Positions 17,981 to 21,960 of a stretch of 42,021 nt of DNA are shown here, piece by piece. The stretch lies in contig JAGUYV010000078.1 of NCBI GenBank assembly GCA_020061125.1, forward strand, positions 1 to 42,021, written 5' to 3'. Within the stretch, counting starts at the first letter, position 1. Each line of letters starts with the position of its first letter. A program made the translations under genes and the position numbers. The notes beneath the pieces were generated by a model, which worked only from the letters and a program-made list of their open reading frames with translations, did no database searches and had not been told where the DNA came from. The stretch comes from a bacterium (GTDB taxonomy: Bacteria; UBP15; UBA6099; DSWB01).

Positions 17981-18009
17981 TTGACGCTGCGGCGCGCCGC
18001 TCTTATATT
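17981..18009 (+). promoter_or_regulatory. Sigma-70-type promoter of the feo operon
   Basis: TTGACG (17981-17986), 17 nt, TATATT (18004-18009): five of six bases match in both boxes. The expected start is near 18016, so the perfect palindrome at 18023-18044 covers about +7 to +28, where a bound repressor would block transcription. Confidence 0.75.
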
Positions 18010-18022
18010 GCAATTGGTGAAC

Positions 18023-18044
18023 AATGTTAGTTTGCCCTAACATT
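18023..18044. promoter_or_regulatory. Palindromic operator of the feo operon (DtxR- or Fur-type)
   Basis: A perfect inverted repeat: AATGTTAG, 6 nt, CTAACATT. The TTAG-N6-CTAA core is of the type bound by DtxR-family metalloregulators; it does not match the classical E. coli Fur box well. It lies between the promoter and the ribosome binding site of an operon that itself encodes one Fur-like and one DtxR-like protein, so autoregulation by either is likely. Confidence 0.7.
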
Positions 18045-18056
18045 CGAGGAGGCCTC

Positions 18057-18740
18057 ATGCCGGAACACGAAAAAAATTTCAAGGAACAGATTTTGAACAT
18101 CACCCGGCAGACGGGCGCGGTTCTCACCCCCACGCAACTGAAGATACTCGATGTTTTTCACGACACCAGCGTTCATGTGAACGCTTCACAGCTTACGGAC
18201 ATGTGCCGCGAAAAAGGCATTGATACGGATGAGGAAAGTGTCAAGCAGATGCTGGACCTGTTCGTGCGCTACGGGGCGGCCCTGCGGCACGAGTTCCACT
18301 TGGACGGCGTGGTGAGCGAAGAGTACGAACACCGCCACCTCACGGATCACCACGATCACTTGGCCTGCGTCAAGTGCGGCGGGGTTCAGGACATTTTTGA
18401 CGCCCGGCTTGAAGACGCGCAGTCGGACGCGTGCCGCGCCAACGGGTTCTCCCCCCTGTGGCACCGCACGGTGATTTACGGCATTTGCTCCCAGTGCGCG
18501 GGCCAGCGCGAGCCGACCCTGCCGTTGAGCTTTGCGTCCCGCGGCGAACGCGTCATCGTCAAGCAGATCCGCGGCGGCGACACCTTCAAGCGCCGCCTCA
18601 CGGACATGGGCATCATCCCGAACCTGGAGCTTGAGGTTTTGAACAACGACGGCCCCATGCTGGTCGCGGCCCGGGATTCCCGCGTGGCCCTGGGCATGGG
18701 CATGGCAGCCAAAATCATGGTTTCGCCCAAAAGAGACTGA
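18057..18740 (+). CDS. Fur-family regulator fused to a FeoA domain
   Basis: About 227 residues in two parts. Residues 8-150 are Fur-like: a winged-helix region (LTPTQLKILDVF), then HHDH at 98-101, CVKC (Cys 104, 107) and CSQC (Cys 144, 147), the structural zinc and metal-sensing elements. The recognition-helix region, ESVKQMLDLFVRYGAALR, departs from the usual ATVYRTL pattern. Residues 157-222 are a FeoA/SH3-like domain with the motif KRRLTDMGI. Fur proteins normally end near residue 150, so the FeoA part is an added module. The ATG at 18057 has GAGGAGG 4 nt upstream; an in-frame ATG at 18024 lies inside the operator and is rejected. It is the first gene of the iron operon. DNA binding is inferred. 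Confidence 0.85.
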   Translation: MPEHEKNFKEQILNITRQTGAVLTPTQLKILDVFHDTSVHVNASQLTDMCREKGIDTDEESVKQMLDLFVRYGAALRHEFHLDGVVSEEYEHRHLTDHHDHLACVKCGGVQDIFDARLEDAQSDACRANGFSPLWHRTVIYGICSQCAGQREPTLPLSFASRGERVIVKQIRGGDTFKRRLTDMGIIPNLELEVLNNDGPMLVAARDSRVALGMGMAAKIMVSPKRD

Positions 18741-18760
18741 CCCGAGGCTGGAGGCCCCGC

Positions 18761-19453
18761 ATGGACGGCGTGTCCCTGACCCCCAACATGGAAGACTACC
18801 TCGAGGCGATTTTCTACCTCAAGAACCTCGACCCTGTGGTGCGCGTGCGCGACATCGCCCGCCACCTCGAAGTGACCATGCCAAGCGTCAGCGACGCGGT
18901 CAAGACGCTCAAGAAACAGGGCCTGGTGCGCCACGAGCCTTACGGCCATGTGGAGCTGACGGACCAGGGCGAAATCCTGGCGCGCAAACTGCTCATGCGC
19001 CACCAGCAGCTCACGCATTTTCTGCGCGACATCCTGGGCGTGGACTCCGAGACCGCGGAATCAGACGCGTGCCGCATCGAGCATGTGGTCAGCCACGAGT
19101 CCATGGAGCGGCTCCTGGCCCTCATCGGAGCCATCGAAAGCTGCACGGACAAAAACTGCTCCATGAGCGCGCGCAACAAGAAAAACCGGGTGCTGATACC
19201 CGAGGTCACGCTGCGGCACAGCGGCACGGCCGGGCTGCACACCCTGGCGCCCGGCGGCACCGCGCAGGTGGCCGGGGTCTCCCCGCATAAAACCTTGCGC
19301 CGCCGCCTGCTGGACATGGGCTTCACGCACGGCGCGCATGTGCAGATGTGCGAGGGGCAGAAACACGGCGCCCCGTACGATGTGCGCATCAAGGGCTACA
19401 CCATTTCGCTGACAAAAAAACAAGCCGAACTCGTGCAAATTCACAACACTTGA
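18761..19453 (+). CDS. DtxR/MntR-family regulator with C-terminal FeoA/SH3-like domain
   Basis: A 230-residue metalloregulator. Residues 6-65 are the winged helix (VRVRDIARHLEVTMPSVSDA), residues 70-120 the dimerisation and metal domain with ESDACRIEHVVS, in which Cys 104, Glu 107 and His 108 line up with DtxR ligands Cys 102, Glu 105 and His 106. Residues 158-228 are the FeoA-like domain with RRRLLDMGF. This three-domain form is well known for DtxR/IdeR. It most likely senses Fe(II) or Mn(II) and represses in the metal-bound state. It follows the Fur-FeoA gene by 20 nt with GGAGG 6 nt before the ATG, and is the best candidate for the protein binding the TTAG-N6-CTAA operator. Confidence 0.9.
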   Translation: MDGVSLTPNMEDYLEAIFYLKNLDPVVRVRDIARHLEVTMPSVSDAVKTLKKQGLVRHEPYGHVELTDQGEILARKLLMRHQQLTHFLRDILGVDSETAESDACRIEHVVSHESMERLLALIGAIESCTDKNCSMSARNKKNRVLIPEVTLRHSGTAGLHTLAPGGTAQVAGVSPHKTLRRRLLDMGFTHGAHVQMCEGQKHGAPYDVRIKGYTISLTKKQAELVQIHNT

Positions 19454-19466
19454 GGAATGCATCAAC

Positions 19467-19754
19467 ATGACTGGCAAACACAACGCAGCAACCTGCAAAA
19501 CGCCGCCCGCCCCGGCCACGCTGGACCGCATGGAACCGGGCAGCATGTGCCGCGTGATTCGCGTGGGACTCAAAGGCCCCCTGCGCCGCAGGCTCATGGA
19601 CATGGGCATCGTCAACGGCGCGCCCGTGGAAATCGTGCGCGTCGCACCCCTGGGCGATCCCATGGAACTCAAAATCAAAGGCTATCTCCTGTCCGTGCGC
19701 AAGGAAGACGCCAAACACATCACGGTGGAAATCCATGAAGACCAACCAGGCTGA
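19467..19754 (+). CDS. feoA: Ferrous iron transport accessory protein FeoA
   Basis: A 95-residue protein that is one FeoA (SH3-like) domain after a short leader of about 18 residues. The core holds RRRLMDMGIVNGAPVEIVRV and DPMELKIKGYLLSVRKEDA, the standard FeoA motifs. FeoA is a small cytoplasmic protein needed for full FeoB activity, probably by binding it. It starts 13 nt after the DtxR-type gene and overlaps feoB by 20 nt, so FeoA and FeoB are likely made in a fixed ratio. It is the third FeoA-like domain in a row; all three share an RRLxDMG signature, which suggests duplication and fusion of one ancestral domain. Confidence 0.93.
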   Translation: MTGKHNAATCKTPPAPATLDRMEPGSMCRVIRVGLKGPLRRRLMDMGIVNGAPVEIVRVAPLGDPMELKIKGYLLSVRKEDAKHITVEIHEDQPG

Positions 19755-21960
19755 CAACGCCGCGAAGAGCCTCCCGCGCGACCGAAACCGGCCTCTGACC
19801 ATGGCCATCGCCGGCAACCCCAACGCAGGCAAAACCACTCTTTTCAACACCCTGTCCGGCGCGCGCCAGCATGTGGGAAACTGGCCCGGCGTCACGGTCG
19901 AGAAAAAAGAGGGTTCCTTCGATTACCACGGGCGCACCATCCACATCGTGGACCTGCCCGGCACTTACAGCCTCACCGCCTATTCCATGGAGGAAGTGAT
20001 CGCCCGCGACTACATCCTCACCGAGACCCCGGATGTGGTGGTCAACATCGTGGACGCTTCCAACCTGGAGCGCAACCTGTACCTGACGGTTCAGCTTCTC
20101 GAATTGGGCGCGCCGGTAATCATCGCGCTGAACATGGTGGATGTGGCCGAGGGGCGCGGCATCCGCATTGATCACAATCAGCTTGGAACGCTCCTTGGCG
20201 TGCCCGTAATTCCCATGGTGGCGCGAACGGGCAAGGGCCGGGACGAACTCATGCGCGCGGTGCTCGACCCGCCGCCGCCCGCGCAGTTGCGCGTGAACTA
20301 CGGACGCGATCTTGAAAACGCGATCCAGAAGCTGTGCGGCACCATGGACGCCTCGCCCGGAACGCCCCCGCCCGCTGGCGGCGCGCGCCACGCCGCGGTC
20401 AAGCTCCTCGAAAACGATTCCGTGTACGAAAAGAAACTCCGGGATTCTTTCGGCCCGGACATCGTGGACCGTAAAAACCGCCTGGCCGCGCGCATCGAGC
20501 AGACCCTGGCCGACGACACCGAAACCCTGCTCGTGGACCGCCGCTACGGATACATCAGCGGCCTGATCCGCGAGGTGGTGTCGCGCCCGGCCATGGACAA
20601 GCGCACCATGACGGACAACATTGACGCCGTGCTCACCCACCGCGCGCTCGGCCTGCCCTTTTTCATCTTCGCAATGTGGGCCACATTCCAGGCCACCTTC
20701 ACCCTGGGCGCAAAACCCATGGAGTGGCTCGACATGTTCTTCGGGTGGCTGGGCGGCGTATTCGCGGCCCTGCTCGGCGACACGCTTATCGGCTCCATGG
20801 TGGTGGACGGCGTGATCGGCGGCGTGGGCGGGGTGTTGAGCTTCCTGCCCAACATCCTGATCCTGTTTTTCGCCATCGCCATGCTCGAGGACACGGGCTA
20901 CATGGCCCGGGCCGCGTTCATTATGGACAAGGTCATGCACAAGCTGCACCTGCACGGCAAATCGTTCATTCCCCTGCTGGTGGGGTTCGGGTGCACCGTG
21001 CCCGCGATCATGGCCACGCGCACGCTCGAAAACCGCAAGGACCGCATCGTGACCATCCTCGTGGCGCCGCTCATGAGCTGCGGCGCGCGCCTGCCCGTGT
21101 ATGTGCTCCTGGCCGGCGCGTTTTTCTCCCCGGCCGCGGCTGGCAATGTCATCTTCTCCATTTACCTCATCGGCATCCTGTTCGCCATTTTCCTGGCGCG
21201 CATCTTCCGCACCAAGTTGCTCAAGGGCGACACTACGCCGTTCGTCATGGAACTACCGCCCTACCGCATGCCCACGCTCAAGAGCGTGCTCCTGCACATG
21301 TGGGAACGCGCCTGGATGTACATCAAGAAAGCGGGCACCACACTGCTGTCCATCGCCCTGCTCATGTGGGCGCTGATCACCTTCCCCCTCACCTTCCCCG
21401 GGCAGGACGCCATGGAGCGGGAACTGTCGCGCCGCGCGGCGGCCGTGGAACAGCGCGCCTCGGAACTCGGCGCCGCCCCGGGCGCGGATATCAAGGACGC
21501 GCGGTACAACGAACTTGTCGAGGCGGTCGAGGAGCAGGAGCGCGAGATCTCGTCCGCGCAGCTCCGGCACAGCCTGGCGGGCCGAGTGGGCCGGTTCATC
21601 GAGCCGGTTCTGCATCCCATCGGCTTCGACTGGAAAACCGGCATTGCGCTCATCTCCGGTTTCGCCGCCAAGGAAGTCATCGTCAGCACCATGGGCATCA
21701 TATACAGCGTGGGATCGAGCGCCGAAGCCTCCAGTGAACTCACCGGCGCTCTGCGCGCGGACCCCATCTTCACGCCCCTCACAGCTTATGTGCTCATGCT
21801 CTTCACCCTGCTCACCATCCCGTGCATGGCCACGGTCGCCGTGATCCACCGGGAAACCGGGTCCTGGAAATGGACCGCATTCTCGCTCGGCTACCATACC
21901 GTGCTGGCGTGGGTGGTGTGCTTCGTGGTGTACCAGGGCGGACGCCTCATCGGGCTGTGA
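19735..21960 (+). CDS. feoB: Ferrous iron transporter FeoB
   Basis: A 741-residue inner-membrane protein of normal length. The cytoplasmic G domain has G1 GNPNAGKT (27-34), G3 DLPG (73-76) and G4 NMVD (133-136), followed by the helical GDI-like spacer. From about residue 300 come the hydrophobic helices with the two Gate regions, containing FIPLLVGFGCTVPAIMATRT (the conserved Cys of the pore) and AAKEVIVSTMGIIYSVG. A charged helical insertion (about 555-610) sits before the last membrane helices. FeoB imports Fe(II), the soluble iron form without oxygen, in line with the anaerobic enzymes nearby. The start lies inside the end of feoA, with GGTGG upstream. The gene is the transport end of the operon. 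Confidence 0.96.
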   Translation: MKTNQADNAAKSLPRDRNRPLTMAIAGNPNAGKTTLFNTLSGARQHVGNWPGVTVEKKEGSFDYHGRTIHIVDLPGTYSLTAYSMEEVIARDYILTETPDVVVNIVDASNLERNLYLTVQLLELGAPVIIALNMVDVAEGRGIRIDHNQLGTLLGVPVIPMVARTGKGRDELMRAVLDPPPPAQLRVNYGRDLENAIQKLCGTMDASPGTPPPAGGARHAAVKLLENDSVYEKKLRDSFGPDIVDRKNRLAARIEQTLADDTETLLVDRRYGYISGLIREVVSRPAMDKRTMTDNIDAVLTHRALGLPFFIFAMWATFQATFTLGAKPMEWLDMFFGWLGGVFAALLGDTLIGSMVVDGVIGGVGGVLSFLPNILILFFAIAMLEDTGYMARAAFIMDKVMHKLHLHGKSFIPLLVGFGCTVPAIMATRTLENRKDRIVTILVAPLMSCGARLPVYVLLAGAFFSPAAAGNVIFSIYLIGILFAIFLARIFRTKLLKGDTTPFVMELPPYRMPTLKSVLLHMWERAWMYIKKAGTTLLSIALLMWALITFPLTFPGQDAMERELSRRAAAVEQRASELGAAPGADIKDARYNELVEAVEEQEREISSAQLRHSLAGRVGRFIEPVLHPIGFDWKTGIALISGFAAKEVIVSTMGIIYSVGSSAEASSELTGALRADPIFTPLTAYVLMLFTLLTIPCMATVAVIHRETGSWKWTAFSLGYHTVLAWVVCFVVYQGGRLIGL

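Follow-up and report, generated by a model that had tools for sequence, protein, structure and literature searches.

FeoA domains are already known both as tails on DtxR proteins (PMC4805248) and as parts of FeoA-FeoB fusions (PMC8980893). One example of a metalloregulator with FeoA in a FeoB operon is PgMntR from Porphyromonas gingivalis, a DtxR-family protein with twin FeoA domains. PgMntR has a hybrid metal site (Asp-Cys-Glu-His), depends on the last FeoA domain for DNA binding, and controls the adjacent manganese FeoB homologue FB2, with which it shares an operon (PMC4805248). In a fusion from Bacteroides fragilis, FeoA is joined to the transporter itself, and no sensor is involved. The B. 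fragilis FeoA contacts NFeoB (the G-domain of FeoB) and stabilises its GTP form (PMC8980893); this system is a model for FeoA-NFeoB contact. The relation between FeoA and FeoB has been called enigmatic (PMC8980893), and excerpts from a survey of Feo architectures call for work on the role of FeoA (PMC8749426). The same excerpts mention FeoA with an additional domain and do not name Fur.

Here we describe Fur proteins with a C-terminal FeoA domain. Our literature search, with most subscription papers outside its coverage, gave no description of Fur-FeoA or of a Fur clade without DNA contacts. Our analysis suggests that in many uncultured bacteria, a Fur protein fused to FeoA acts on the importer itself, either in place of or in addition to regulating the importer's gene.

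An operon with two metalloregulators fused to FeoA

The window (the whole stretch of 42,021 nucleotides that was analysed, contig JAGUYV010000078.1) comes from a bacterium of the GTDB lineage UBP15. It contains four genes in the order Fur-FeoA, DtxR-FeoA, FeoA, FeoB, all on the forward strand and with intergenic gaps of 20, 13, and -20 nt. The features of this region are:

17981-18009, + strand: sigma-70-like promoter, TTGACG-17-TATATT, matching the consensus at 10/12 positions
18023-18044, no strand assigned: perfect 8+6+8 palindrome, AATGTTAG-TTTGCC-CTAACATT, with a TTAG-N6-CTAA core; candidate DtxR/IdeR-type operator
18057-18740, + strand: Fur-FeoA fusion, 227 amino acids, identified with Pfam; Shine-Dalgarno sequence AGGAGG at 18047-18052
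18231-18254, + strand: position of the recognition helix, EESVKQML (Tyr56 to K and Arg57 to Q in the numbering of Magnetospirillum Fur, PMC4506495)
18522-18728, + strand: FeoA domain of Fur-FeoA, type 2 (RVALGMGMAAKI)
18761-19453, + strand: DtxR/MntR-type regulator with a C-terminal FeoA domain, helix-turn-helix intact, ligands Asp12, Cys104, Glu107, and His108
19235-19441, + strand: FeoA domain of the DtxR protein, type 1
19467-19754, + strand: free FeoA, 95 amino acids, type 1
19735-21960, + strand: FeoB, 741 amino acids, overlapping feoA by 20 nt

All four proteins match the expected Pfam families. The first matches FUR (1.5e-15) and FeoA (3.9e-17), the second matches Fe_dep_repress, Fe_dep_repr_C, and FeoA, and the last two match FeoA and FeoB, respectively; all four are above the cut-offs. 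FeoB also matches NCBIfam TIGR00437 (641.8 bits versus a cut-off of 315.65), and its G-domain, Gate, and FeoB_C regions are present. The original prediction, made from the window alone, was that these genes form one operon and that a Fur-FeoA beside a DtxR-FeoA is unusual. Both points hold, and the RRLxDMG signature that it noted is common to the three FeoA parts (RRLTDMG, RRLLDMG, and RRLMDMG). In the window's genome (4.1 Mb, 79% complete), these three domains are the only FeoA matches, and the operon's FeoB is the sole FeoB found.

We prefer the start codon of Fur-FeoA at 18057 over 18024 (AGGAGG lies at 18047-18052). Sigma-70-like matches as good as the one listed occur twice in the region, versus 1.1 expected by chance. 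The palindrome is at -30 relative to the first gene, and its core, which resembles the DtxR/IdeR box, has a single copy in the window's genome. In a related genome with the same gene order (G001), the core occurs once in 12 kb, at the promoter of dtxR. There, at -32 relative to the dtxR start codon, it coincides with the end of a TATAAT.

In the DtxR-FeoA protein, the helix-turn-helix and the dimer domain are intact and MntR-like, the FeoA domain is present, and MntR is the nearest of the solved structures to the DtxR half. The metal site (Asp12, Cys104, Glu107, and His108) is of the same hybrid type as in PgMntR, so Mn2+ as well as Fe2+ is a candidate metal for the window's system. From its sequence features, DtxR-FeoA probably binds the palindrome at 18023-18044. 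The original prediction suggested that each sensor may act both on DNA and on FeoB. This needs adjusting: because DtxR-FeoA keeps an MntR-like DNA-binding half and there is a DtxR-type operator candidate at the promoter, the two sensors probably divide the work, with one at the DNA and the other at the transporter.

Fur-FeoA is a recurrent fusion

Both halves of the window's Fur-FeoA are well supported. The Fur half passes the cut-off for PF01475 (57.8 versus 23.1 bits) and the FeoA half matches PF04023 with 62.5 bits. An AlphaFold model (mean pLDDT 88.6) matches Fur structures as well as FeoA 3e19. The FeoA half has an SH3-like fold and aligns to 3e19 with an rmsd of 1.2 over 69 columns (Foldseek). 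The individual domains are modelled well, but their mutual placement is uncertain (pTM 0.50), so we take no reading from domain contacts. The FeoA half is a full domain, and the Fur half keeps its metal ligands.

A profile search of 386 sampled genomes for full-length Fur-FeoA proteins found them in seven: the window's genome, G001, G041, G049, G108 (candidate division TA06 bacterium SM23_40), G236, and G275. A scan of public genome contigs with a single-protein query gave no match, and an alignment-based scan gave at least 17 further carriers on contigs with named records. These are mainly Desulfarculaceae (including the cultured strain Dethiosulfatarculus sandiegensis SPR) and Thermodesulfobacteriales, along with a Brocadiia planctomycete and a Latescibacterota bacterium.

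We use "class A" for the 22 proteins with a changed recognition helix, which form our alignment set; since the contig scan used a single search pattern, 22 is a lower bound on the size of the family. All 22 match both FUR (E of 0.001 or better) and FeoA in Pfam, and the carriers belong to Desulfobacterota, Planctomycetota, Latescibacterota, TA06, and other groups. "Class B" consists of the proteins from G049 and G236, which have an intact helix and are outside the 22.

A sequencing error at 18500-18520 could have joined two separate genes, but the same type of junction recurs in 21 further proteins, which excludes this and establishes a true fusion. The other outcome that would have undone the original prediction was that such fusions are widespread and described. 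They do recur (seven of the 386 genomes), but we found no published description in the literature searched. One further candidate, from G064 (L034:4170-4907), was rejected as a fusion. Its fur and feoA share one reading frame, with a single in-frame TAA and one codon between them, and the helix of this near-fusion's Fur is intact.

The Fur half keeps its metal sites and has lost its DNA-reading residues

Fur-FeoA shares with Fur from Magnetospirillum, Pseudomonas, and E. coli the fold, the metal sites, the structural CxxC pairs, and (by homology) the dimer domain. It differs from these proteins in its C-terminal FeoA domain, in its acidic DNA-binding half, and in lacking the contacts made by Lys15, Thr17, Tyr56, and Arg57. 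In Magnetospirillum Fur, Lys15, Tyr56, and Arg57 read the DNA; the R57A change abolishes binding and Y56A nearly does so (PMC4506495).

We compared the 22 class A Fur halves with 93 ordinary Furs. Arg57 is kept in 2/22 class A proteins versus 93/93 ordinary Furs, and Lys or Arg at position 15 in 1/22 versus 90/93. Thr17 is kept in three class A proteins, versus 87/93. At position 56, none of the class A proteins has Tyr, and none has Phe either (Tyr or Phe in 0/22 versus 83/93). The window's protein has V, K, and Q at positions 15, 56, and 57, and its recognition helix reads EESVKQML where an ordinary Fur has LATVYRVL. The DNA-binding half carries a mean net charge of -3.3 (sd 2.4) in class A, as opposed to +3.4 (sd 3.0) in ordinary Furs. 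As a control within the same genomes, 26 other Fur copies of the carriers have TVY or TIY intact, with R, K, or N as the next residue.

The metal ligands (His33, Glu81, His87, Asp89, His90, Glu101, Glu108, and His125) are kept in 20-22 of the 22 proteins, although the conservation of HHDH..C is partly forced by the pattern used in the contig scan (the other ligands are free of this bias). The CxxC pairs are kept as well. The window's protein has Asp in place of Glu101.

Thus, class A as a family lacks the residues for DNA reading and has an acidic DNA-binding half. The atypical helix that had been noted in the window is general in class A, and the idea that the Fur part has lost DNA reading gains strong, family-wide backing from the residue comparison.

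Origin of the fusion

In a tree of the Fur halves, 21 of the 22 class A proteins form one supported clade (98/88), and the same clade appears if the DNA-binding columns are left out (96/88). The exception is from G041, whose gene adjoins an intact tandem fur. The tree speaks against one origin for all 22, although the AU test does not reject it (p = 0.207). Apparently, the same helix change arose a second time, independently, in G041, where the fusion has an intact Fur copy next to it. The main clade is old; its members come from several phyla and have kept the metal sites and the FeoA domain.

In the FeoA tree, a 100/100 branch separates two deep types. The FeoA part of the window's Fur-FeoA falls on the RxALGxGMAxK side, and the other side holds the free FeoA and the tail of the DtxR protein. 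This rules out a recent triplication as the source of the window's three FeoA parts. Fur-FeoA differs from PgMntR in this respect and in others: PgMntR is a DtxR-family protein that binds DNA, and Fur-FeoA is a Fur whose tail is of another type than that of the window's DtxR protein.

The class B proteins (L037:2301-2984 in G049 and L072:6335-7057 in G236) are encoded directly 5' of feoB. Since their Fur halves group with ordinary Furs and their tails with the other type of FeoA, these fusions arose separately from the window's family.

Elsewhere, the fused type of FeoA is a free gene between fur and feoB. In L096 (Omnitrophota), fur, feoA (type 2), feoA (type 1), and feoB are consecutive. This is the same domain set in the same order as in Fur-FeoA systems, but the genes are separate and the Fur helix is intact. 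A likely path is that neighbouring genes fused and that DNA reading was lost afterwards.

The link to FeoB and a proposed role of Fur-FeoA

FeoB was found in all 22 class A genomes, as compared to 73 of 98 diverse baseline genomes. (The probability by chance is about 0.0015 if the genomes are taken as independent, but many carriers are related, so the co-occurrence is weaker than the raw number.) The fusion gene is clustered with feoB in 13 of the 22 and is not beside feoB in the other 9. In G108 (L071:351-4341), the order is dtxR, feoB, an ORF of 86 amino acids, and fur-feoA. There is no free feoA on this 8 kb contig, and Fur-FeoA may be the only FeoA there.

The most likely reading, to which we give about an even chance, is that Fur-FeoA is a metal sensor that works off the DNA and uses its FeoA domain to act on FeoB, while DtxR-FeoA keeps the promoter; the contact with FeoB is one that we infer. 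Fur-FeoA would dimerise through the C-terminal domain of Fur. In a metal-replete cell, it would load Fe2+ (or Mn2+) and change shape, and the SH3-like FeoA domain would thereby be presented to, or hidden from, FeoB's G-domain in the cytosol. Import would thus be adjusted quickly to the metal level, probably by Fur-FeoA competing with, or adding to, free FeoA. Transcription of the window's operon would be left to DtxR-FeoA, which would repress at the palindrome at 18023-18044. For the family, it is plausible, at a little under even chances, that a Fur clade from several phyla gave up DNA and became a metal-gated FeoA subunit of FeoB, with cytosolic metal feeding back directly on the importer.

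Fur-FeoA could instead still be a transcription factor whose changed helix reads another sequence, perhaps aided by FeoA as the SH3-like domain aids DtxR. The model has high confidence in the winged-helix region, and the helix keeps its hydrophobic core (V and L in SVKQML). Also, PgMntR requires the last of its FeoA domains for DNA binding (PMC4805248). However, members differ in the exposed residues of the helix, which are frequently acidic (EEDIIEAL, PEFVEQTL, AEAIRDAL), and with Lys15, Thr17, Tyr56, and Arg57 nearly all lost and a mean charge of -3.3 instead of +3.4, we consider this unlikely. Fur-FeoA might also be an anti-repressor or co-repressor, which would pair with an intact regulator, using either the dimer face of Fur or contacts between FeoA domains, and alter its DNA binding. 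A delta-proteobacterial FUR copy has been proposed to form inactive heterodimers (PMC545781), and an intact Fur or DtxR gene adjoins the fusion or is within two genes of it in 7 of the 22: a tandem Fur in G041 and L077, and a DtxR or DtxR-FeoA in the window, G001, G108, L084, and L093. But the other 15 have no such partner nearby, the partners are from unrelated families, and the constant companion of Fur-FeoA is FeoB. Furthermore, four genomes, including G001 (95% complete), yielded no Fur-family protein other than Fur-FeoA, which precludes pairing with an ordinary Fur as its general role. This alternative seems distinctly unlikely.

A manganese or mixed system would fit the main architecture and differ in the metal alone. 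FeoB would carry Mn2+, DtxR-FeoA would be a Mn regulator like PgMntR, and Fur-FeoA would sense Mn or Fe. The hybrid site of DtxR-FeoA favours this, as PgMntR is the operon partner of a Mn transporter (PMC4805248), and so does the similarity of the DtxR half to MntR. Against it, the window's genome has just the one FeoB that we found, and this FeoB keeps GCTVPA and SCGARLPVY, which are typical of Fe2+ FeoB; we view manganese as improbable. Finally, the fusion might be an ordinary joining of domains in which FeoA has no special role. The separately arisen class B fusions, with their intact helices, may be of this kind. For the main clade, the age and spread, the retained metal sites and FeoA domain, and the presence of FeoB in every class A genome checked make it very unlikely.

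If Fur-FeoA does act on FeoB, it bears on how FeoA affects FeoB and on how cells stop importing Fe2+ when the transporter is already in place. We found no description of direct metal feedback on an importer by Fur in the literature searched. A natural joining of a sensor to FeoA, without the DNA-reading part, would also be a ready tool for studying metal-dependent binding to the FeoB G-domain. For annotation, a caution is that a match to FUR need not indicate a transcriptional repressor.

Other gene settings and upstream palindromes

In four Thermodesulfobacteriales loci (L079, L080, L082, and L083), Fur-FeoA is a lone gene with conserved surroundings. It precedes a convergent putative YmdB-type phosphoesterase gene and a putative RNase Y-like gene (both assigned from an impression of the sequence). 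In G275 (L073:4421-5448), Fur-FeoA extends into the start of a response-regulator-like receiver gene that has the same orientation. Related palindromes that resemble Fur boxes are found upstream of Fur-FeoA in L085 (at -26 from its start) and L087 (at -65): ATTGCAAC-CCA-GTTGCAAT and ATTGAAACT-G-AGTTGCAAT. The operons behind these palindromes are without an intact fur gene.
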